From contig NC_013959.1 of the NCBI RefSeq assembly GCF_000025705.1, positions 124,001 through 188,000 on the forward strand: DNA of 64,000 nucleotides. Reading direction: 5' to 3'. Shown here piece after piece: positions 43,337 to 55,165 of this stretch; position 1 is the stretch's first letter; each line of letters begins with the position of its first letter. The notes beneath the pieces are model-generated. The model was not told the origin of the DNA and searched no databases. It worked only from the letters and a program-made list of their open reading frames with translations. The position numbers were made by a program, and so were the translations under genes. The DNA is from Sideroxydans lithotrophicus ES-1. Its GTDB lineage: Bacteria > Pseudomonadota > Gammaproteobacteria > Burkholderiales > Gallionellaceae.

Positions 43337-43352
43337 TGGCACATGGTTTGCT
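43337..43352 (+). promoter_or_regulatory. Sigma-54 promoter of the NIT-ANTAR regulator gene
   Basis: TGGCAC-ATGGT-TTGCT fits the RpoN consensus, with GG (43338-43339) and GC (43350-43351) exactly 12 bases apart. Transcription should start near 43363, only about 23 bases before the start codon. Confidence 0.8.
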
Positions 43353-43388
43353 TATGATTGAACATCATTCAGTCATAAGCAAACCATG
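43342..43388. repeat. 16-bp perfect inverted repeat over the promoter and start codon of the NIT-ANTAR gene
   Basis: CATGGTTTGCTTATGA (43342-43357) and TCATAAGCAAACCATG (43373-43388) are perfect reverse complements separated by 15 bases. The left arm covers the -12 part of the sigma-54 promoter and the right arm ends with the ATG start codon. Since transcription should begin between the arms, it is more likely a DNA operator than an RNA hairpin. Confidence 0.75.
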
Positions 43389-44651
43389 AAATTGTCAGCG
43401 GAAAAGATCGTCCTGCTTGCCAAACAACTCCAGATCGAGGAGTTAAAGCACTTGGCCGCAATGTCGCAGTTCGTCGGCGTAGTCGGCCACTTGATTCACA
43501 ATCTGCAGGCCGAACGCGGTGCATCAGGCATCTTCCTCGCCTCGGCTGGAGATCGCTTTGCCGACATACGCCTGGAATTGGCCGCGGAATCCGAGTCAGT
43601 GGAGCGCGAATTGCGGACTGCGTTCGAGCCGCAGTTGAAGCGAGCCATCTATGGCAACGCAAGGCTTCTGCACCTGATGGCCTGGGTTCTGCTCGGTCTG
43701 GATGAACTTCCCGAACTCAGAATACGAATCAGTGAACAGAAGCTGACTGCGGATGACTCTATCGCAGCATTCAGCCGCCTGATCGCCGGCCTGGTTTCCC
43801 TGATCTTCGAGGTGGCTGATTCCACGGTCGATCCGCGCATATCCAGCTTGTTGGTCGCGTTCTTCAATCTGGTTCAGGGCAAGGAGCTGGCAGGCAGAGA
43901 GCGTGCGGTCGGGGCGTTGTCCTTCGCCTCAGGCATCTGCGACGATGTCCACCAGCAAAGAATCTTGCATCTCATCGACGCCCAGGAACGCCACTTCCAG
44001 GTATTTGGTGAATTCATAGAAGAGCAGCTGATGGCCCAGTGGCAGGAAGTCCAGGATGCATCCTGCATCGCGCAGCTGGAGCGCATGCGGCGGATGTTGT
44101 GCAATGCCAGGCAGACCACCGCCCTCGACGCAAATCTGAGCGATAAGTGGTTCGAAACATGCAGCGAGCGCCTGACAGCAATCTGGTCTATACAGTGCAC
44201 GCTGGTGGACCGCCTTGAAGAACTCTGCGCTTCGCTTGTCAACGAGGCTGAGTCCGATTTGCAGGATTCGGAAGGACTGCTCAAGGCGCTTCGCGAGCAC
44301 CCGCCCGCGAGCGCCGAGTTGGCCGACAAATTCTTTAACCCCGCCATACCAGTCGAGAATGCACTGAGCTTTGTGGCACATGCCGGTGGTGAAGCCGGTC
44401 AGAGACGGTCGATAGTCGACGTGCTGCAGGCTCAGTCCCAGCGGCTGGCCGGCATGGAGACCGAGCTGGTTGCGGCACGGCGCGCGCTGGACGAGAGGAA
44501 AACCATCGAGCGTGCCAAAGGTATCCTGATGGCGCGCTTCAATCTCAGCGAGGATGCTGCTTACAAAAGATTGCGCAATGCATCCATGGAGCAGAACCGG
44601 CGACTGGCGGATGTGGCCGAAGCGGTTCTGACGCTCGCAGCGGTTTCCTGA
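43386..44651 (+). CDS. nasR: Nitrate-responsive antiterminator, NIT-ANTAR (NasR type)
   Basis: A 421-residue soluble regulator. Residues 40-290 form the helical NIT domain, which in Klebsiella NasR binds nitrate or nitrite; HNLQAERGASGIFLASAG near residue 38 is its characteristic start. The C-terminal ANTAR domain (about 365-421) has ERKTIERAKGILMARFNLSE and AYKRLRNASMEQNRRLADVA, which bind paired RNA hairpins and prevent termination. There is no visible Shine-Dalgarno sequence; the start lies in an inverted repeat. It stands 550 bases upstream of nrtA and is not in its transcript. Two matching RNA targets occur downstream (45064 and 49637). Confidence 0.93.
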   Translation: MKLSAEKIVLLAKQLQIEELKHLAAMSQFVGVVGHLIHNLQAERGASGIFLASAGDRFADIRLELAAESESVERELRTAFEPQLKRAIYGNARLLHLMAWVLLGLDELPELRIRISEQKLTADDSIAAFSRLIAGLVSLIFEVADSTVDPRISSLLVAFFNLVQGKELAGRERAVGALSFASGICDDVHQQRILHLIDAQERHFQVFGEFIEEQLMAQWQEVQDASCIAQLERMRRMLCNARQTTALDANLSDKWFETCSERLTAIWSIQCTLVDRLEELCASLVNEAESDLQDSEGLLKALREHPPASAELADKFFNPAIPVENALSFVAHAGGEAGQRRSIVDVLQAQSQRLAGMETELVAARRALDERKTIERAKGILMARFNLSEDAAYKRLRNASMEQNRRLADVAEAVLTLAAVS

Positions 44652-44728: not shown

Positions 44729-44766
44729 GATCCGGGAATCTGCCCTATGGCGCAGACTCCCGGATC
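44729..44766. terminator. Long hairpin downstream of nasR
   Basis: GATCCGGGAATCTGC (44729-44743) pairs with GCAGACTCCCGGATC (44752-44766), 14 of 15 positions, with an eight-base loop. There is no T-run. It probably ends or stabilises the nasR transcript, or binds a protein. Confidence 0.5.
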
Positions 44767-45031: not shown

Positions 45032-45047
45032 TGGCACGACTGTTGCA
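45032..45047 (+). promoter_or_regulatory. Sigma-54 promoter of nrtABC
   Basis: TGGCACG-ACTG-TTGCA matches the RpoN consensus at every conserved position, with GG (45033-45034) and GC (45045-45046) 12 bases apart. The transcript should begin near 45058, giving a leader of about 145 bases before nrtA. Confidence 0.9.
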
Positions 45048-45063
45048 TCGCAATTGTCAGTAG

Positions 45064-45109
45064 CGAACCAATGGCGGTTCGGAAAATGAGTACAAGGACA
45101 AAGGCGTCC
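45064..45109 (+). promoter_or_regulatory. ANTAR-type two-hairpin antiterminator in the nrtA leader
   Basis: Hairpin P1 is CGAACC-[AATGGC]-GGTTCG (45064-45081). Hairpin P2 is GGAC-[AAAGGC]-GTCC (45096-45109). Both loops have six bases with A at position 1 and G at position 4, the known recognition pattern of ANTAR proteins; a 14-base linker joins them. P2 uses bases 45104-45109, which are also the 5' arm of the terminator, so the two folds exclude each other. Confidence 0.88.
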
Positions 45110-45141
45110 CACTGCGCAAATGCGTAGTCGGACGCTTTTTT
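45104..45141 (+). terminator. Leader attenuator terminator of nrtABC
   Basis: GCGTCC / GGACGC (45104-45109, 45130-45135) is extended by ACTGCGC / GCGTAGT (with one G-T pair) after a C-C mismatch, loop AAAT, then TTTTTT. It lies 60 bases before the nrtA start and overlaps hairpin P2. It should stop transcription unless NasR with nitrate holds P2. Confidence 0.9.
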
Positions 45142-45201
45142 ATTAGATCGTTTAAAGATGTTGTCTTTTATATATGGCGGTTAATTCAAGGAGAACGCAA
45201 C

Positions 45202-46638
45202 ATGAAAAGTGAAACTACAAATGGAACGGCCGTTTCCGTAAACGGCAACTGTAAACCTCGTCGCGGATTTCTTAAAAGTACGGCAATCGTTGCGTGTGTG
45301 CTCGCACTGAATTGTGTTGCGCCGCTAGGCCTGTCCGACGCTAAAGCCGCAGTCGGCAAAGCCGAACAGACTTCCTTGAAATTCGGTTTTATCAAGCTCA
45401 CCGATATGGTGCCGCTGGCAGTCGCCTACGAGAAAGGCTACTTCGAGGACGAGGGGCTGTCAGTCACGCTGGAAGCGCAGGCAAACTGGAAAGTGTTGCT
45501 CGATCGAGTAGTCACCGGCGAACTGGATGGCGCGCATATGCTTGCCGGTCAGCCGATTGGGGCCACCATCGGCATAGGCACCAAAGCCGACATCATCACT
45601 CCGTTCAGCATGGACATGAATGGCAATGCCATCACTGTTTCCAATGCCGTGTGGACCGAGCTCAAGAAAAAGCTGCCTATGAAGGATGGCAAGCCGGTAC
45701 ATCCGGTCGATCCGAAGTACCTCAAGGAAGTTGTCGACGAATACAAGGCACAGGGCAAGGCATTCAAGATGGGGATGGTGTTCCCGGTATCCACACATAA
45801 TTACGAATTGCGCTACTGGCTTGCGGCAGGCGGAATGAATCCCGGCTACTACGCGCCGACCAAGGGCGATACCAGTGGGACCCTCAAGGCGGACGTGCTG
45901 CTGTCGGTCACTCCGCCGCCTCAGATGCCGTCAACTATGGAAGCCGGCACGATTGACGGTTATTGCGTCGGGGAACCGTGGAACCAACAGGCAGTGTTCA
46001 AGGGGATAGGCGTGCCGGTCGCAACCGATTACGACGTGCAGAAAAACAATCCGGAAAAGGTTTTCGGCGTATCCAAGAAGTGGGCGGATGCGCACCCCAA
46101 TACGCTTGTGCACATCGTGAAGGCGCTGATCCGTGCCGGATACTGGCTTGACGCGCAGAACGACGGGAACCGTATGGAAGCGGTCAAAATGATCTCGAAA
46201 CCGAACTACGTTGGTGCCGACGAAAAGGTGATCGCCAACAGCATGACCGGTACCTTTGAATATGAAAAAGGCGACAAGCGTCCCGCACCTGACTTCAACG
46301 TATTCTTCCGCCACAACGCAACCTATCCCTACTACAGCGATGCGGTCTGGTACCTGACGCAGATGCGCCGCTGGGGCCAGATTGCGGAAGCCAAACCGGA
46401 CAGCTGGTACATCAAGATTGCCAAAGAGGTCTACCGTCCGGACATATATGCCACTGCAGCAAAGGAGTTGATAGCTGAAGGCAAGATGAAGGCGTCCGAC
46501 TTCCCCGATTTTTCCAGGGAGACCGGCTTCAAGGGACGGGAAGACGGTTTCATCGACGGCATTGTTTACGATGGGCGCAAGCCGAATGCGTATATCGACA
46601 AGTTCAAGATTGGCTTGAAGGGCAACGAACAGCCGTAA
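45202..46638 (+). CDS. nrtA: Nitrate ABC transporter substrate-binding protein
   Basis: The periplasmic nitrate receptor of an NrtABCD/NasFED-type importer. The 478-residue precursor has a twin-arginine signal (KPRRGFLKS, residues 18-26; cleavage near DAKAA, 50). The mature protein starts with KFGFIKLTDMVPLAVAYEKG, typical of NrtA/CmpA/SsuA receptors. GQPIGATIGIGTKADIITPF and GYCVGEPWNQQAVFKGIG supply ligand-pocket residues of the nitrate/bicarbonate branch. RBS AAGGAG follows directly after the attenuator. nrtB starts 56 bases later. Bicarbonate receptors are close relatives, but the nas context favours nitrate. Confidence 0.93.
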   Translation: MKSETTNGTAVSVNGNCKPRRGFLKSTAIVACVLALNCVAPLGLSDAKAAVGKAEQTSLKFGFIKLTDMVPLAVAYEKGYFEDEGLSVTLEAQANWKVLLDRVVTGELDGAHMLAGQPIGATIGIGTKADIITPFSMDMNGNAITVSNAVWTELKKKLPMKDGKPVHPVDPKYLKEVVDEYKAQGKAFKMGMVFPVSTHNYELRYWLAAGGMNPGYYAPTKGDTSGTLKADVLLSVTPPPQMPSTMEAGTIDGYCVGEPWNQQAVFKGIGVPVATDYDVQKNNPEKVFGVSKKWADAHPNTLVHIVKALIRAGYWLDAQNDGNRMEAVKMISKPNYVGADEKVIANSMTGTFEYEKGDKRPAPDFNVFFRHNATYPYYSDAVWYLTQMRRWGQIAEAKPDSWYIKIAKEVYRPDIYATAAKELIAEGKMKASDFPDFSRETGFKGREDGFIDGIVYDGRKPNAYIDKFKIGLKGNEQP

Positions 46639-46694: not shown

Positions 46695-47696
46695 ATGAAC
46701 ACAATACAACCAACACCATCCATCAGGCGACGTGTGTCCGCATTGTTGCAACCCGACTCCAGCGGCGAGCCGGTGTTGCGGGTGATATTTCGCACAGTGC
46801 TGCCGCCTTTGCTGGGTATTTTCATCTTCCTGGTCTTGTGGGATGTCGGAGCCAGCCATGTCCACACGTCGCTGGGCACATTACCGGGACCGGTTGCGGT
46901 GATGAAACAGGCTGGCAACCTGTATCAGGAATATCAAGACGAGCAGGGACGCAAAGCTGCGTTCGAAGAACGCCAGAAGGAACGCAAGGCTGAATTCCAG
47001 GCCACGAACCCGGGGCAGCAATTCGATGAGATAAAGTACACCGGCCAGCCGACCTACCTGGATCAGATCTTCACCAGCCTCTACACGGTGTTCGTCGGGT
47101 TCTTCCTGGGGACGATCATCGCCGTGCCGCTCGGTATCCTGTGCGGTTTGAACAAGACGATACAGGCTGCACTCAATCCACTGATCCAGATATTCCGTCC
47201 GGTGTCGCCGCTCGCCTGGTTGCCCATTGTCACACTGGTGGTCAGCGCACTCTATGTCAGCGCCGATCCGATGTTCGCGAAATCATTCCTCATCTCGGCG
47301 ATCACCGTGACGCTGTGTTCGATGTGGCCGACGCTGGTCAACACCGCACTGGGTGTCGCTTCAATCGACAAGGATCTGCTCAATGTCTCCAAAGTGCTGC
47401 GCTTGTCCACCAGCACCAAGGTGATGAAGATCGTTATCCCCTCATCTCTCAAGCTGATCTTCACCGGCATGCGCCTGTCGCTCGGTGTGGCGTGGATGGT
47501 GCTGATCGCTGCCGAAATGTTGGCGCAAAACCCCGGTTTGGGCAAATTCGTCTGGGACGAATTCCAGAACGGCAGCTCACAGTCGCTGGAACGCATCATG
47601 GTGGCGGTATTCACCATCGGATTCGTCGGTTTCCTGCTCGACCGGACCATGCATACGCTGCAGCAGATGGCCAGTTTCGGTCAGCGCACCAACTAA
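46695..47696 (+). CDS. nrtB: Nitrate ABC transporter permease
   Basis: A 333-residue inner-membrane permease with about six or seven helices. A cytoplasmic or periplasmic charged insert (residues 75-115, DEQGRKAAFEERQKERKAE) is longer than I expect from cyanobacterial NrtB. The core from about 120 has GFFLGTIIAVPLGILCGLN, and the EAA-type coupling loop falls in NVSKVLRLSTSTKVMKIVIP near 240. The stop is followed without a gap by the ATPase gene. It pairs with nrtA and the double ATPase. Confidence 0.92.
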   Translation: MNTIQPTPSIRRRVSALLQPDSSGEPVLRVIFRTVLPPLLGIFIFLVLWDVGASHVHTSLGTLPGPVAVMKQAGNLYQEYQDEQGRKAAFEERQKERKAEFQATNPGQQFDEIKYTGQPTYLDQIFTSLYTVFVGFFLGTIIAVPLGILCGLNKTIQAALNPLIQIFRPVSPLAWLPIVTLVVSALYVSADPMFAKSFLISAITVTLCSMWPTLVNTALGVASIDKDLLNVSKVLRLSTSTKVMKIVIPSSLKLIFTGMRLSLGVAWMVLIAAEMLAQNPGLGKFVWDEFQNGSSQSLERIMVAVFTIGFVGFLLDRTMHTLQQMASFGQRTN

Positions 47697-47717
47697 GTGA
47701 CTACTCAGGAAAATCGA

Positions 47718-49451
47718 ATGAAATCCAGCGCACAACTTATAGAGGCTGATCACGCCGAGATCGCGTCACCACCGGTGACATCCTCCCCTATCCTGGAATT
47801 CAAAGGGGTTAGCAAGTCGTATGGCACAGGCACACAGCGCACGGTTGTGCTTGACGACATCAACCTGCGCATCAACGAGGGCGAGTTCGTTGCCATCGTT
47901 GGCTTTTCCGGCAGCGGCAAGTCGACCTTGATTTCGTTGATCGCCGGGCTTCAGCAGGCAGATGCAGGTGCGATTTTGTTAAGAGGAAAAGCGATAGCGG
48001 GGCCGGGGCCTGATCGCGGTGTGGTATTCCAGAATTACTCACTGATGCCGTGGATGACGGTAGGCCAGAACGTCGCTCTCGCGGTCGATCAGGTATTCAA
48101 GGACGCGCCCAAGGGGGAACGTATGTTGCGCGTCGAAAAATATATCCACATGGTGAACCTGACCCATGCCATGGACAAGCGGCCTGCCGAACTATCCGGC
48201 GGTATGCGCCAGCGGGTGTCGGTGGCGCGTGCGCTGGCAGCTTCCCCGGACATCCTGTTGCTCGACGAGCCGTTGAGTGCGTTGGATGCCCTCACCCGTT
48301 CCAAGTTGCAGGACGAGATCATCCGCATCTGGAGCAAGGAGAAAAAGACCGTCGTATTGATTACCAACGACGTGGACGAAGGCATCATCATGGCCGACCG
48401 CATCATCCCGCTGAACCCTGGTCCGAATGCGACACTGGGGCCAGAGTTCCCCGTCATGCTGCCGCGTCCGCGCGACCGTGCAGCCATCAATCATGCGCCT
48501 GAGTTCAAACGCATCCGCCGTGATGTGACACAGTATCTCATGCAGATTGGTGCGGAAAAAAGTGCGGCTGTCGACAGCAAGATCGTCAACCTTCCTTCAG
48601 TGTTGCCAAACACATCGCGTGAACACCAATCAAACGTCAGCCAGAAATCTCGAGACGTCACTGAAGCAAATCCGGACCGCTATGTCGACTTCTCGCAGGT
48701 ATCGAAGATTTATCCGTCAAGGAAGGGGCCGATCAAAGTGGTCGACGGTTTCGACCTCAAGATACGCAAGGGTGAGTTCATATCCATCATTGGCCATTCC
48801 GGCTGCGGCAAATCAACCGTGCTATCCATGATGGCCGGCCTCAACGACATCAGCGAAGGTGTCATCGTTCTTGATGGACGCGAGATCGCCGCTGCAGGGC
48901 CGGATCGAGGTATCGTATTCCAGGCTCCCAGTCTCGTGCCATGGCTGACCGCCCATGAGAATGTCGCGCTGGGAGTGGAACAGGTATACCCGCATGTGAC
49001 GGCACAGAACCGCAAGGACATCGTCGAAAATTATCTCGGTCGCGTCGGCTTGGCCGACGTGAAGGACAAGAGAGCCTCCGAGCTTTCCAACGGCATGAAG
49101 CAGCGTGTCGGCATCGCACGCGCGTTTGCGCTCTCGCCCAAGATGCTATTGCTCGATGAGCCGTTCGGCATGCTGGATTCGCTGACGCGCTGGGACCTGC
49201 AGGAAGTGCTGATGGAAGTCTGGACGCGAACCAGGGTCACGGCCATGATGGTCACTCATGATGTTGATGAGGCGATCCTTCTTGCCGACCGTGTTGTGAT
49301 GATGACCAACGGTCCGAACGCAAGGGTTGGCAAGATCCTGGAGATCAATTTGCCACGCCCGCGCACACGCAAGATGTTGCTCGAGCACCCTGATTACTAT
49401 GAATTGCGAGAACAGCTGCTTACGTTTCTTGAGCAATGCGATCATGGCTGA
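47718..49451 (+). CDS. nrtC: Nitrate ABC transporter ATPase with two fused ABC domains
   Basis: A 577-residue protein made of two complete ABC domains in tandem. Domain 1 (about 20-265) has Walker [10 protein letters not shown], signature LSGGMRQRV and Walker [13 protein letters not shown]. Domain 2 (about 320-570) has [18 protein letters not shown] (Asn in place of the second Gly) and [12 protein letters not shown]. In cyanobacteria NrtC and NrtD are separate ATPases, with NrtC carrying an extra receptor domain; here both ATPases are one polypeptide and that domain is absent. The ATG at 47718 has AGGAAA at a good distance; a GTG at 47697, touching the nrtB stop, is an alternative. Confidence 0.92.
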
Positions 49452-49602
49452 CAAGGCGGGCAGCTTCTCCGGCAATAATCTGCCGGAACTCAAAGAGGCT
49501 CGGGTTCGTTGTCAATTGCATTGATGCACCAGAAGAAGGTCTTGTGCACCAATTAAATGCACATTTTGTCCGGCATCACCAGTATCTATGCGGCCATTGC
49601 AA
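49452..49602. other. Upstream region of the nirB promoter
   Basis: No gene is supported here. Several short open frames cross it without ribosome sites. It carries the TGCACC half-sites and, at its end, a perfect palindrome GCCATTGCAATGGC (49593-49606) running into the sigma-54 promoter. Confidence 0.6.
49525..49550. promoter_or_regulatory. Putative NtrC half-sites upstream of nirB
   Basis: TGCACC occurs at 49525-49530 and again at 49545-49550, two helical turns apart, about 55-80 bases before the sigma-54 promoter. The same hexamer lies upstream of the nrtA promoter. Confidence 0.4.
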
Positions 49603-49618
49603 TGGCACAGGAATTGCA
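49603..49618 (+). promoter_or_regulatory. Sigma-54 promoter of nirBD-nasA
   Basis: TGGCAC-AGGAA-TTGCA matches the RpoN consensus, with GG (49604-49605) and GC (49616-49617) 12 bases apart. The predicted start is near 49629, giving a leader of about 110 bases. Confidence 0.88.
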
Positions 49619-49636
49619 CTACCAGGCTATAGAAAT

Positions 49637-49691
49637 CTTCCCAACCCAATGGCGGGCGGAAGGTCGATCAGAAACACCGACAAAGACGTCG
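49637..49691 (+). promoter_or_regulatory. ANTAR-type two-hairpin antiterminator in the nirB leader
   Basis: P1 (49637-49662) is CTTCC-CAA-CCC-[AATGGC]-GGG-C-GGAAG, an interrupted stem with the same hexaloop as in the nrtA leader. P2 (49678-49691) is CGAC-[AAAGAC]-GTCG. Both loops keep A1 and G4. A 15-base linker separates them. P2 shares bases 49685-49691 with the terminator. Confidence 0.87.
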
Positions 49692-49721
49692 TTACGGCTG
49701 AGGGCCGGACGGCGTCTTTTT
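49685..49721 (+). terminator. Leader attenuator terminator of nirBD-nasA
   Basis: GACGTCGTT / GACGGCGTC (with G-T pairs) continues, past a bulged A, into CGGC / GCCG around a TGAGG loop (49685-49716), followed by TTTTTATTTT. It ends 18 bases before the nirB ATG and competes with hairpin P2. Confidence 0.88.
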
Positions 49722-49738: not shown

Positions 49739-52183
49739 ATGAGGAAAGAAAGTGTACGACTGGTAGTGATCGGCAACGGTATGGCGGGTATGCGCACCAT
49801 CGAGGAATTGCTCAAGATGTCGGCGGACGAATTCGACATAACAGTATTTGGTGCGGAACCGCAGCCAAACTACAACCGCATCCTGCTGTCTCCCGTGTTG
49901 TCCGGCGAAATGTCGTTCCAGGACACGATCCTGAACGACTGGGACTGGTACGAGAAAAACCGTATCACCCTGCACGCCGGGAAAACAGTGACGAAGATCG
50001 ATCGCACCCGCTGTGTGGTCGAAACCGATGATGGAATCATTGTTCCCTACGATCGCCTGCTTATCGCAACGGGTTCCAATCCCATCATGCTGCCCATACC
50101 CGGAATTGATTTGCCCGGCGTATTAAGCTATCGCAGCATCGCCGATGTCGGGAGCATGCTGAGCAAGGCCACCGCAGGCAGTCGCGCCGTGGTGATAGGC
50201 GGCGGCTTGCTCGGACTGGAAGCGGCCAACGGCTTGTCGCTGCGCGGCATGGACGTATCCGTGGTGCATTTGTGCGACTGGCCGATGGAACGCCAGTTGG
50301 ACAAGGTCGGCGGTGGCTTGTTGAAAGACGCGCTGGAAAAACGCGGACTGAAGTTCTATCTGTCGCGACAGACGGAAGCCATACTGGGTGAAACGATCGT
50401 CACCGGCTTGCGCTTCAAGGATGGGGAGGAAATACCAGCCGACCTGATCGTGATGTCGGCCGGTATCCGCCCCAACATCGCGTTGGCCAAGTCGGCAGGT
50501 ATTCATTGCGAGCGCGGCATCGTGGTCAGCGACACCATGCAGACTTACGATCCGAAGATATATTCGGTGGGTGAATGCGTGCAGCATCGCGGGCAAACTT
50601 ACGGCCTGGTCGCACCCTTGTTCGAGCAGGCCAAGGTGGCGGCGAATCATCTCGCCCGTTACGGGGCGATGCGCTATGAGGGTTCTTCCGTTTCGACCAA
50701 GTTAAAGGTAACGGGCATCGACCTGTTTTCTGCGGGGGATTTCAATTCGGGCGGATTGGACGAAGAGTTGCTGCTGCAGGATTCGGCGCGCGGCGTGTAC
50801 AAGAAACTGGTGTTGCGCGACAACAAATTGCGCGGTGCAGTGATGTACGGCGATACCGTGGACGGCCCGTGGTATTTCCAGATGATGCGCGATGGAACGG
50901 ACGTTTCCGAATTGCGCGAGCATCTGCTGTTCGGGCAGATGCATATCGGGGATTCCGGCCTCGGGGGCGTATCGAGCGTGGTGAGCATGTCCGACACGGC
51001 GGAGATTTGCGGCTGCAACGGCGTATGCAAGGGAGCGATCGTCAATGCCATCGTCGACAAGAAACTGTTCACGCTGGAAGAAGTGCGTGCCCATACCAAG
51101 GCATCCTCTTCCTGTGGGTCCTGTACCGGTCTGGTGGAAGCGCTGCTGGCGAACACATTGGGCGGCGATTATTCCGCCAAGCCGAGCAAGAAACCGCTCT
51201 GCGCCTGTACTGAATTTTCGCACCAGGATGTGCAACAGGCGATTCGCGCTCGTGCGCTGAAAACCATTCCCGACCTGATGCAGACCCTGCAATGGAAAAC
51301 CCCGGATGGTTGCCATATCTGTCGTCCCGCGCTGAACTACTATTTGCTGGCAGCATGGCCTGGCGAATATCAGGACGACAGCCGTTCGCGCTTCATCAAT
51401 GAACGCGTGCATGCCAACATTCAGAAGGACGGCACCTATTCGGTCATCCCGCGCATCTGGGGCGGCGTCACTTCGCCGGCCGAGTTGCGTTCGATCGCCG
51501 AGATCGCCGAACGCTATGAAGTGCCTACCGTCCACATCACCGGCGGCCAGCGCATCGGTCTATATGGAATCACCAAGGACAATCTGCCCAAGATGTGGGC
51601 CGAGATGGTCGATGCGGGATTCGTTTCAGGCCACGCTTATGGCAAAGCGTTGCGCACGGTAAAAACCTGCGTTGGATCGGAATGGTGCCGGTTCGGCACA
51701 CAGGATTCCACCTCGCTGGGCATCAAGGTCGAAAAGATGACCTGGGGTTCGTGGACTCCGCACAAATTCAAGATCGCCGTCTCCGGCTGTCCACGCAATT
51801 GCGCCGAGGCCACCATCAAGGATTTCGGTGTGGTGTGCGTGGACTCCGGTTACGAGATCCATGTGGGCGGAAACGGCGGCGTCAAGGTTCGCGTCACCGA
51901 CTTTCTGTGCAAGGTCGAGACCGAGGCCGAGGTATTGGAGTATTGCGGTGCATTCATGCAGCTCTATCGCGAGGAAGCTCATTACATGGAGCGTACGGCC
52001 CCATGGATAGAGCGTGTCGGGCTGGTCTATGTCAAGCGGCACATCGTTGAGGATGCTGCCGGGCGTACACAGCTATATGGGCGATTCCTGGAATCGCAAC
52101 GCGACTCACAGGAAGACCCGTGGAAAGAACGCGCCGAAGGGAAGGATGCACATGAATACGCCGCTCTTGCCACCATTGAATAA
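49739..52183 (+). CDS. nirB: Assimilatory nitrite reductase, NADH-dependent large subunit
   Basis: NirB reduces nitrite to ammonium in the cytoplasm with six electrons from NADH. The 814 residues show an FAD/NADH oxidoreductase domain (IGNGMAGMRTIEELL at residues 11-25; VVIGGGLLGLEAANGL near 153), a first BFD [2Fe-2S] domain (CGCNGVCKG near 423, CGSCTGLVEALL near 458), a second BFD-like segment (CACTEFS near 487, CHICRPALNYYL near 522), and the sirohaem domain with four Fe-S ligands in KTCVGSEWCRFGTQ (near 643) and VSGCPRNCAEA (near 683). The RBS is GAGGAG. nirD starts 10 bases later. Confidence 0.96.
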   Translation: MRKESVRLVVIGNGMAGMRTIEELLKMSADEFDITVFGAEPQPNYNRILLSPVLSGEMSFQDTILNDWDWYEKNRITLHAGKTVTKIDRTRCVVETDDGIIVPYDRLLIATGSNPIMLPIPGIDLPGVLSYRSIADVGSMLSKATAGSRAVVIGGGLLGLEAANGLSLRGMDVSVVHLCDWPMERQLDKVGGGLLKDALEKRGLKFYLSRQTEAILGETIVTGLRFKDGEEIPADLIVMSAGIRPNIALAKSAGIHCERGIVVSDTMQTYDPKIYSVGECVQHRGQTYGLVAPLFEQAKVAANHLARYGAMRYEGSSVSTKLKVTGIDLFSAGDFNSGGLDEELLLQDSARGVYKKLVLRDNKLRGAVMYGDTVDGPWYFQMMRDGTDVSELREHLLFGQMHIGDSGLGGVSSVVSMSDTAEICGCNGVCKGAIVNAIVDKKLFTLEEVRAHTKASSSCGSCTGLVEALLANTLGGDYSAKPSKKPLCACTEFSHQDVQQAIRARALKTIPDLMQTLQWKTPDGCHICRPALNYYLLAAWPGEYQDDSRSRFINERVHANIQKDGTYSVIPRIWGGVTSPAELRSIAEIAERYEVPTVHITGGQRIGLYGITKDNLPKMWAEMVDAGFVSGHAYGKALRTVKTCVGSEWCRFGTQDSTSLGIKVEKMTWGSWTPHKFKIAVSGCPRNCAEATIKDFGVVCVDSGYEIHVGGNGGVKVRVTDFLCKVETEAEVLEYCGAFMQLYREEAHYMERTAPWIERVGLVYVKRHIVEDAAGRTQLYGRFLESQRDSQEDPWKERAEGKDAHEYAALATIE

Positions 52184-52193
52184 GGAGAATGCC

Positions 52194-52520
52194 ATGAACT
52201 GGATACAAGTCGGCACGCTGGAGGATATTCCGCGCCAGGGTTCGCGCGTGATCAATACTGCACATGGCGAGATCGCCCTGTTTCGCAGCAAGGACGATCA
52301 GGTATTCGCACTCAACAACCGCTGCCCGCACAAAGGCGGGCCACTGGCGCAGGGTATCGTGCACGGCAAACGCGTCACCTGCCCGTTGCACAACTGGGTG
52401 ATCGACCTGGAATCGGGCTCCGCCATCGCGCCCGATGTAGGGTGTGCACATCGGCATGAAGTGCGCGTCGCACATGAAGTGCTGTTCCTTGCGCTAGAAG
52501 CAGGAGCATGCAAAGCATGA
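52194..52520 (+). CDS. nirD: Nitrite reductase small subunit
   Basis: A 108-residue Rieske-fold partner of NirB. The ligand-type motifs CPHKGGPL (near 41) and CPLHNWVIDL (near 60) are kept, so it may hold a real cluster, unlike the cluster-free E. coli NirD. I chose the start at 52194, which has AAGGAG seven bases upstream; the longer open frame belongs to sequence inside nirB. The stop overlaps the nasA start (ATGA). Confidence 0.93.
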   Translation: MNWIQVGTLEDIPRQGSRVINTAHGEIALFRSKDDQVFALNNRCPHKGGPLAQGIVHGKRVTCPLHNWVIDLESGSAIAPDVGCAHRHEVRVAHEVLFLALEAGACKA

Positions 52521-55165
52521 ATGCAGCACAAGTCGCCCGCAGCACCTGTCCTTATTGCGGGGTCGGCTGCGGAGTGACAGCGAACGTCAGTGCAGATGCT
52601 GTCACGCTCGCGGGCGATATAACGCATCCGGCCAATTTCGGCAGGTTGTGTTCCAAGGGCGCTGCGCTGGCCGACACACTGGATCACGAAGGCCGATTGC
52701 TGTATCCGCTAGCCAACGGCGTGCGCATATCCTGGGATGAGGCACTCGACCGGGTTGCGCATGGATTTGAAAAGATCATCGCCGAACATGGCACGGATGC
52801 CGTTGCGTTCTATGTCTCCGGGCAACTGCTGACCGAAGATTATTACGTTGCCAACAAGCTGATGAAGGGATTCATCGGCAGCGCGAACATCGATACCAAT
52901 TCACGGCTGTGCATGTCGTCGGCGGTGGCCGCGCAGAAACGCGCATTCGGCGCGGATGCGGTGCCTGTGTGCTACGAGGATGTCGAGATGGCGGACCTCG
53001 TGGTGCTGGCCGGTTCCAACTATGCCTGGGCGCATCCGGTGTTATACCAGCGCCTCGCGGCGGCGAAGAAAGCGCGTCCCGAGATGCGGGTAGTGGTGAT
53101 CGACCCGCGGCGCACTGCGACTTGCGACATCGCCGATCTGCATCTGGCGATCGCGCCGGGTGCAGATGCGTTCTTGTTCAACGGGCTGCTGCACCATCTG
53201 CGCCGCGAGGATGCGATCGATCTCGGTTACGTCGAGGCACATGTGGAAAGTTTTGCCGGTGCCTTCGAGGCGGCACGTGCGGCTGGCTCGATCCCCAAGG
53301 TAGCGCAGGTGTGCGGGCTGGCGGAATCGGACTTGAGCGAATTCTTCCGTCTGTTCGCGAAGACAGAACGCACCGTGACGGTGTTCTCGCAGGGCATCAA
53401 CCAGTCTTCCAGCGGTGTGGACAAGGGCAACGCAATCATCAATGTACATCTGGCTACGGGTCGGGTCGGGAAAGCCGGCATGGGGCCTTTCTCGGTGACC
53501 GGACAGCCGAACGCGATGGGCGGACGCGAGGTTGGCGGATTGGCCAATCAACTGGCGGCGCATCTGGATTTTTCCGATGCAGCGAGTATCGATTTGGTTG
53601 GGCGGTTCTGGAAAGCAGCCGGCATCGCGCGCAAACCCGGTCTGAAAGCTGTAGAGATGTTTCATGCCATCGCTTCGGGCAAGATCAAGGCGGTGTGGAT
53701 CATGGGCACCAATCCGGTGGTCAGCATGCCGGATGCGGACAGTGTGCGTGCCGCATTGATGGATTGCGAACTGGTTGTTGTGTCCGATTGCATGCGACAC
53801 ACCGATACGACGGCATGCGCCGACATCCTGCTTCCTGCCACAGGCTGGGGCGAAAAGGACGGCACGGTGACCAACTCCGAGCGGCGCATCTCACGGCAGC
53901 GCGCGTTCATGCCGGCAGCGGGTGAAGCCAGGCCTGATTGGTGGATCATCACCCAGATTGCGCAGCGCATGGGATTTGCCGAGGCGTTCCCCTATACCCA
54001 GCCTGCGCAAATATTCCGCGAGCATGCACGCCTGTCTGGTTTTGAGAATGCGGGAACGCGTGCTTTCGACATCAGTGCATTGGCTGATCTGGGCGATGCG
54101 GATTACGATGCACTGCAGCCTGTGCAGTGGCCGGTCAACAGTCAGGCACCGCAGGGGACTCAGCGTTTGTTCGTGGATGGAAGATTTTATACGCCCAGCG
54201 GCAAGGCACGCATGACCACAGTTTCGCCTCATCTGCCCGCAGTGGCGGTAGATGATAATTTTCCGCTGGTGCTGAATACCGGCCGGATCCGCGATCAATG
54301 GCACACCATGACCCGAACCGGGAAGGTGCCGCGTCTCAATGCGCATCAAATTGAGCCGTTTGTGCAAGTGCAGGCATCCGATGCTCAACTGTGTCGGTTG
54401 CAGGACGGTGCGCTGGCGCGCTTGACGAGCCGCGACGGGACCATGTTGGCACGGGTTCAGGTGAGCGACGATCAGCGACCCGGCTCGGTGTTCGTACCCA
54501 TGCACTGGAATGATGGCTTTGCCAAATTGGCACGTGTGGATGCCCTGGTCGCACCGATCACCGACCCTATCTCGGGACAGCCTGAATCCAAACATACACC
54601 GGTTCGAGTCGAAACTTATCAGCCTGCCTGGCAGGGTTTTGTTCTGAGCCGGACCCGTCTTGACTTTGCCGATACCAGTTATTGCGTTTGCTCACGTGGC
54701 GCAAACTATTGGAGGCATGAAATTGCCGGTGACGTCACGCCTGAAGATTGGCGTAGCTGGGTACAAACTACTTTGCATGGCCCTGGTGACTGGATCGAAT
54801 ATCGCGATATGGGAATGAGGCGTTATCGCGCTGCCTGCCTTCGAGATGGCAGATTGGAAACGGTGTTCTTTATTGCGGCAGACCACCTCTTGCCGGAACG
54901 CGAATGGCTGGGCAGTCTGTTCAGCCAAGAGCGACTTGAAGCAGTCGACTTGGCTGGATTGCTGGCTGCACGCCCGCCCAAAGGCGCCGCGACCGACGCA
55001 GGACGTAATGTGTGCGCATGTTTCAGCGTGGGCGAAAAAACCATCCTGAACGCCATTCAGACACAAGACCTGAATAGTATCGAAGCCATCGGGCTATGCT
55101 TAAGGGCAGGCACCGGCTGCGGTTCATGTGTACCTGAAATTCGGCGCATTCTTGACCAAAGCTGA
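52517..55165 (+). CDS. nasA: Assimilatory nitrate reductase, molybdopterin subunit with C-terminal [2Fe-2S] domain
   Basis: The cytoplasmic enzyme reduces nitrate to nitrite. Of its 882 residues, the first 60 bind a [4Fe-4S] cluster (STCPYCGVGCGVTAN near 9-23, then RLCSKG). The molybdopterin domains follow, with SSAVAAQKRAFGAD near 135 and NVHLATGRVGKAGMGPFSVT near 315. The C-terminal ~60 residues are a BFD-type [2Fe-2S] domain (NVCACFSVGE, then GTGCGSCVPEIRRIL), as in Klebsiella-type NasA. The start at 52517 overlaps the nirD stop and has AGGAG ten bases upstream; an ATG at 52508 is too close to that site. No nasB flavoprotein gene is adjacent. Confidence 0.94.
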   Translation: MNAAQVARSTCPYCGVGCGVTANVSADAVTLAGDITHPANFGRLCSKGAALADTLDHEGRLLYPLANGVRISWDEALDRVAHGFEKIIAEHGTDAVAFYVSGQLLTEDYYVANKLMKGFIGSANIDTNSRLCMSSAVAAQKRAFGADAVPVCYEDVEMADLVVLAGSNYAWAHPVLYQRLAAAKKARPEMRVVVIDPRRTATCDIADLHLAIAPGADAFLFNGLLHHLRREDAIDLGYVEAHVESFAGAFEAARAAGSIPKVAQVCGLAESDLSEFFRLFAKTERTVTVFSQGINQSSSGVDKGNAIINVHLATGRVGKAGMGPFSVTGQPNAMGGREVGGLANQLAAHLDFSDAASIDLVGRFWKAAGIARKPGLKAVEMFHAIASGKIKAVWIMGTNPVVSMPDADSVRAALMDCELVVVSDCMRHTDTTACADILLPATGWGEKDGTVTNSERRISRQRAFMPAAGEARPDWWIITQIAQRMGFAEAFPYTQPAQIFREHARLSGFENAGTRAFDISALADLGDADYDALQPVQWPVNSQAPQGTQRLFVDGRFYTPSGKARMTTVSPHLPAVAVDDNFPLVLNTGRIRDQWHTMTRTGKVPRLNAHQIEPFVQVQASDAQLCRLQDGALARLTSRDGTMLARVQVSDDQRPGSVFVPMHWNDGFAKLARVDALVAPITDPISGQPESKHTPVRVETYQPAWQGFVLSRTRLDFADTSYCVCSRGANYWRHEIAGDVTPEDWRSWVQTTLHGPGDWIEYRDMGMRRYRAACLRDGRLETVFFIAADHLLPEREWLGSLFSQERLEAVDLAGLLAARPPKGAATDAGRNVCACFSVGEKTILNAIQTQDLNSIEAIGLCLRAGTGCGSCVPEIRRILDQS

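Follow-up and report, generated by a model that had tools for sequence, protein, structure and literature searches.

The window analysed here, a stretch of 64 kb covering positions 124001–188000 of a genome that comprises 3,003,656 bases in one contig, contains a nitrate-assimilation cluster in which all genes and features are oriented on the plus strand. The gene nasR (43386–44651) encodes a NIT-ANTAR nitrate-responsive antiterminator of 421 residues (Pfam NIT, 2.6e-43; ANTAR, 1.4e-21), and is followed by nrtA (45202–46638) for the nitrate-binding protein of an ABC transporter (NMT1_2), nrtB (46695–47696) for the ABC permease, and an nrtD-like gene (47697–49451) for a double ABC ATPase. Further downstream are nirB (49739–52183), encoding the large subunit of an assimilatory nitrite reductase, nirD (52194–52520) for the Rieske-type small subunit, and a nasA/nasC-type gene (52508–55165) for a molybdopterin nitrate reductase with a C-terminal BFD-like domain. 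Two leaders interrupt this arrangement, one before nrtA (leader 1) and one between the end of nrtD at 49451 and the start of nirB at 49739 (leader 2).

NasR, the sole ANTAR protein of the genome, can be aligned with Klebsiella NasR (4akk) across both domains (E 3e-44), and its gene adjoins leader 1. The first-pass annotation placed this gene 550 bases upstream, which is accurate relative to nrtA, whereas the nasR stop codon is about 380 bases from the leader 1 promoter. When the numbering of PMC7496416 is applied with an offset derived from the alignment to 4akk, the residues discussed there as important are largely retained: Glu175 and Arg176 of the GxERA motif in the nitrate pocket, Arg340, Lys341, Lys347, and Gln194 are present, while Lys345 is replaced by Arg, Trp362 by Tyr, and Glu191 by Val. 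The change of Lys345 to Arg has been described as close to wild type (PMC7496416).

Leader 1 begins with a sigma-54 promoter (TGGCACGACTGTTGCA, 45032–45047) that matches the consensus with zero mismatches and also precedes P1 in relatives; transcription is predicted to start at about 45057–45058. The P1 hairpin (CGAACC-AATGGC-GGTTCG, 45064–45081) presents the hexaloop AATGGC at 45070–45075, and the P2 hairpin (GGAC-AAAGGC-GTCC, 45096–45109) the hexaloop AAAGGC at 45100–45105; both loops have A at position 1 and G at position 4, and both are closed by a C-G pair. An intrinsic terminator with a T-run on its 3′ side extends over 45100–45141. According to RNAfold, positions 45100–45109 pair with 45130–45139 in a structure of about −26 kcal/mol (−26.1; z −6.1) that none of 200 shuffled sequences equalled. 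Because the entire P2 loop and 3′ arm are consumed by this structure, P2 and the terminator are mutually exclusive. The promoter, the two hairpins with their loops, and the terminator are where the first-pass annotation had put them, and its claim of mutual exclusion holds as well, with an overlap (45100–45109) somewhat larger than the 45104–45109 it gave. The full-length leader is predicted to fold into the terminator (−35.4 kcal/mol), and a version truncated before the terminator into P1 plus P2 (−13.8 kcal/mol), which in the modelled RNA is the expected default-off arrangement. A pattern scan for sigma-70 promoters and terminators did not list the leader 1 terminator, the stem of which is interrupted.

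Leader 2 (49603–49721) has the same organization. Its perfect sigma-54 site (TGGCACAGGAATTGCA, 49603–49618; predicted start at about 49628) is the only match to TGGCACN5TTGCA in the 64 kb apart from the leader 1 promoter. The P1 hairpin (49635–49664) consists of a lower stem (49635–49641 with 49658–49664), an internal loop, and an upper stem of only three base pairs (CCC/GGG) that carries the hexaloop AATGGC at 49648–49653, the same P1 loop as in leader 1. P2 (CGAC-AAAGAC-GTCG, 49678–49691) is excluded by an intrinsic terminator (49682–49721; −24.5 kcal/mol, z −3.6) that uses the P2 loop and 3′ arm as its 5′ arm and ends 18 bases before the nirB start. In both leaders, the A1/G4 hexaloops are placed on stems of at least 3 bp, the predicted fold sets P2 against the intrinsic terminator, and all four hairpins have the C-G closing pair preferred in SELEX. 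A composite scan that combined a sigma-54 site with two hairpins bearing A1/G4 hexaloops and with a terminator that overlaps P2 returned exactly two sites in the window, at 45032 and 49603; in 200 first-order random sequences with matching dinucleotide composition, the mean was 0.04 per sequence. Since the scan was designed after leader 1 had been seen, the unforeseen match to leader 2 is the better evidence. With leader 2 as a second complete leader, NasR probably gates two units separately.

The covariance-model search for the two-hairpin motif that had been proposed as a check on leader 1 gave a clear result for that leader, and a less decisive one for leader 2. With a model built from nine leaders, that is, leader 1 and eight leaders of relatives, leader 1 scores 49.8 bits and leader 2 scores 21.6 bits, followed in the window by a match of 9.7 bits; covariation in this model is biased upward, as its members were chosen by a scan that requires paired stems. 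Genome-wide, the 21.6 bits of leader 2 are not outstanding, and a chance match within a coding gene reaches 24.5 bits. The third whole-genome match of the hairpin model (G000:C1:2106711) is located inside a coding frame of 1618 residues and was rejected as a chance match.

The far lower score of leader 2 and the three pairs of its upper P1 stem agree with an alternative in which only the nrtA leader is functional, and the nirB element is either a decayed copy or an operon terminator and a promoter behind nrtD; a genome of the same family (G064, locus L151) indeed has no leader before nirB. Against this, leader 2 has A1 and G4 in both loops, a terminator that overlaps P2, and a perfect sigma-54 site of its own, and a full element precedes nirB in G049. 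Two or three leaders, positioned before nrtA and nirB or nasA, are also found in G324, G534, G287, G331, and G246. Moreover, two genomes of the same genus keep P1, P2, and the terminator before nirB, with lower P1 stems that are different in sequence, yet complementary. A single functional leader is therefore considered unlikely, and two functional leaders remain the preferred reading. In the same-genus loci (L149, 6340–6455, and L150, 6380–6495), no sigma-54 site is close by, and in one of these genomes (G133) the unconstrained fold of the nirB leader favours another pairing. These leaders apparently represent an ANTAR attenuator inside the operon, and, as they do not have a nearby promoter, they must act on transcripts arriving from upstream. 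By comparison, leader 2 in the window has gained, or kept, a promoter of its own.

A third sigma-54 promoter-like site (TGGCACATGGTTTGCT, 43337–43352) precedes nasR, with a predicted start at about 43362. The pattern YGGCACN5TTGCW occurs at 15 sites in the whole 3.0-Mb genome, and once for the reversed control; three of the 15 fall within this 12-kb cluster. The −24 GG and −12 GC elements are in place, and the genome encodes RpoN and an NtrC, the latter above its curated cut-off. Putative NtrC sites are less distinct. An NtrC-like site ahead of the nirB promoter (TGCACCAATTAAATGCA, 49545–49561) is weak, with two mismatches and matches as good in 6 of 100 shuffles, and the best match before nrtA, also weak, has three mismatches. 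Over 22 related promoters, the best NtrC sites have a mean of 2.7 mismatches, compared with 4.1 in shuffled sequences.

Two inverted repeats flank nasR. The first (43342–43388; 21-base arms, 95% complementary, 5-base spacer) overlaps the −12 element of this sigma-54 site as well as the start codon of nasR; as the predicted nasR transcript would contain only the second arm, this repeat may act as an operator at the DNA level. The nasR ATG is not preceded by a clear ribosome-binding site. The second, a strong 15-base inverted repeat without a long T-run (44729–44766), is located after nasR, and is perhaps the nasR terminator.

The first-pass annotation had named lack of hexaloop conservation in relatives as an argument against its reading of leader 1. 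Since many relatives have these loops and stems, the overlapping terminator, and the sigma-54 promoter ahead of nrtA or nirB, that argument falls away. NIT-ANTAR proteins at E ≤ 1e-25 are encoded by 18 of 399 genomes of the order, this one included. Where nrtA follows the NIT-ANTAR gene, a leader built in the same way is present, usually with a TGGCAC-type promoter 34–60 bases before the P1 loop, and plasmids of Erwinia and Pantoea carry a single-leader form with NasR and NrtA. Several loci of relatives depart from this pattern. The linkers between P1 and P2 are seemingly long, about 50 to 160 bases, before nrtA in L054, L055, and L056, and in L049 (10340–10470); for EutV, short linkers are reported as needed. 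Leader-like stretches also follow the NIT-ANTAR gene in Ideonella, Burkholderia, and others (L049, L050, L053, L057, and L070), where some loops deviate from A1/G4, and in the annotated records of L049 and L050 this stretch precedes a gene for a formate/nitrite transporter. At locus L066 of G246, NrtA shares 76% identity with its counterpart in the window and the NIT-ANTAR protein only 34%, so that the transporter and the regulator have different histories.

Members of the family generally use a short NasT-type ANTAR protein as regulator. A full-length NIT-ANTAR relative was not found in the other family genomes searched, and a search for related loci in genome contigs returned no relative. 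In two genomes of the same genus (G133 and G124), a NasT-type gene occupies the place of nasR before the same leader, which over 111 aligned bases is 85% and 76% identical, respectively, to that of the window; other NIT-ANTAR genomes reach 67–75%. NirB and NasA of these two genomes are 87–88% and 77–78% identical to their counterparts in the window. NrtABD, on the other hand, are 84–86% identical to those of another genus of the family (G001). These identities are most simply read as an exchange of the regulator, and perhaps of nrtABD too, next to a native leader and native nirB-nasA genes.

That the closest leaders stand behind short NasT-type genes, and that leader 1 is more similar to that of G133 than to those of other NIT-ANTAR genomes, would also suit a scheme in which a NasS-NasT system or some other regulator acts on the hairpins and the NIT-ANTAR protein has a different role. 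However, the genome encodes no ANTAR protein besides the NIT-ANTAR one, and NIT-ANTAR genes elsewhere have the same kind of leader downstream, which makes this scheme highly improbable and NasR the expected reader of both leaders.

At gathering thresholds, Rfam reports only tRNA in the window, and nothing in nine related loci. In a search by E-value, both leaders match the narK RNA family (RF03032) over the full model, with E-values of 8e-6 for leader 1 and 6e-4 for leader 2. As the corresponding scores of 37.5 and 29.1 bits are below the gathering score of 43.2 bits, the leaders are regarded as related to narK RNA and are not filed as members. Leader 1 also matches P11 (RF00625), which we take to be NalA, at 23.8 bits (E 0.001), short of the cut-off of 70 bits. 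The RF03032 model begins inside the sigma-54 promoter (GGCaCAgcucUUGCU) and continues with P1 (CC-AACGGC-GG) and a tail, CGAC-AAAGAC-GUCG. P1, with the loop AACGGC, is its sole annotated hairpin; the tail, which corresponds to P2, is left unpaired. In contrast to the leaders described here, the annotation of RF03032 treats the promoter as RNA.

Of 399 genomes of the order, 46 contain a narK-type element (three of them above the cut-off), and no such element was found in 14 control genomes. An ANTAR gene is present in every one of the 46, as opposed to 14 of 34 compared genomes without the element (Fisher 4e-10, a value that serves as a guide only since related genomes are not independent). In 29 of the 46, the ANTAR gene is encoded on the same strand no more than 500 bp upstream, and in 41 it is within 7 kb. 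The best 30 of these loci were read with P2 placed by fixed position and not by pairing. Among them, A1 and G4 are present in the P2 loop in 29, complementary bases occupy 114 of 120 P2 pair cells (the largest value in 2000 shuffles was 109), and the 3′ arm of P2 is taken up by a terminator fold in all 30. The exception with respect to the loop, L122, is due to a shift in placement, and a full element occurs at the same place in L113. Because the element tracks ANTAR genes, and because P2 loops and terminators are kept in these best 30 loci, narK RNA is very probably the ANTAR leader of nitrate genes with the promoter attached. A prediction of a NasT-type hairpin before narK in Bradyrhizobium (PMC6759348) points the same way. 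The terms 'narK RNA', 'narK motif', and 'RF03032' were not mentioned in the literature searched, which did not include the source paper of the family. The broader proposal is likewise regarded as likely: that in Burkholderiales-type bacteria the family as a whole represents a sigma-54 promoter plus the ANTAR dual-hairpin leader that precedes nitrate-assimilation genes, with P2 and the terminator missed and the promoter taken for RNA, and that either of two unrelated sensors, NasS-NasT or NIT-ANTAR, reads this RNA, one having taken the place of the other within a single genus on an RNA that was retained.

An ordinary constitutive terminator between operons with a sigma-54 promoter, coincidental hexaloops, and no protein switch is hardly credible. 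Intergenic terminator folds are frequent in general, but dozens of genomes share both A1/G4 hexaloops and a terminator that excludes P2, and these features go together with ANTAR genes.

Based on these comparisons, we consider it about 90% probable that the nitrate-assimilation cluster is under NasR-type transcription antitermination at two separate leaders, the RNA of which is related to the narK RNA elements of Rfam. NasR-type antitermination had been proposed for leader 1 in the first-pass annotation, and the NIT-ANTAR gene, RpoN and NtrC in the genome, and the recurrence of the leader in relatives speak in favour of it; the system outlined there is well supported with respect to leader 1 and incomplete, as it included neither the nirB leader, nor the promoter before nasR, nor the relation to narK RNA. 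In the proposed mechanism, nitrogen limitation would cause phospho-NtrC and sigma-54 to start transcription before nasR, nrtA, and nirB, as suggested by the promoters and the presence of RpoN and NtrC. When nitrate is lacking, the RNAs of both leaders are predicted by folding to form the intrinsic terminators. Binding of nitrate or nitrite in the NIT domain would allow the ANTAR domain of NasR to grip the A1/G4 hexaloops of P1 and P2, by analogy with Klebsiella NasR. With P2 held by NasR, its loop and 3′ arm would be withheld from the terminator, and read-through into nrtABD and, separately, nirBD-nasA could follow, again as for Klebsiella NasR. Transcripts that arrive from nrtD may be gated by the nirB leader as well. 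For nitrate-triggered binding, read-through, and NtrC-driven initiation, the model draws on work in Klebsiella and Pseudomonas (PMC7496416, PMC3369931, and PMC12830290).

The switch mechanism is already known, and taken alone, the nrtA leader adds a new host to a well-understood type of device. The Klebsiella oxytoca nasF leader has P1 and P2 with A1/G4 hexaloops and C-G closing pairs, and an intrinsic terminator that excludes P2 (PMC7496416 and PMC3369931). The cluster in the window shares these leader features and the NIT-ANTAR one-component sensor. Unlike the K. oxytoca system, it is a betaproteobacterial cluster with a double ABC ATPase, it has two leaders, each with its own sigma-54 promoter, and nirBD-nasA would be gated separately from the transporter. 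In Pseudomonas, the NasS-NasT/NalA system combines a sigma-54/NtrC start with ANTAR antitermination of the nirBD leader (PMC12830290). The situation in the window appears similar, and includes the weak match of leader 1 to P11, but the sensor is a fused NIT-ANTAR protein in place of the NasS-NasT pair. Control of several dual-hairpin leaders by one ANTAR protein is also found for EutV and the eut leaders of Enterococcus (PMC3369931), although there the signal comes from an ethanolamine two-component system and other genes are controlled. The same source reports a 2012 covariance survey of 1902 genomes, which may list this genome. What is new from the window is the second switch and the third sigma-54 promoter. 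Within such clusters, nitrate uptake and reduction would be gated separately, probably by the same protein. The RNA switch may suit two different nitrate sensors, and leader and sensor swaps could thus be used to probe ANTAR specificity. For the orphan RNA family narK RNA, the comparison provides a testable and likely function.
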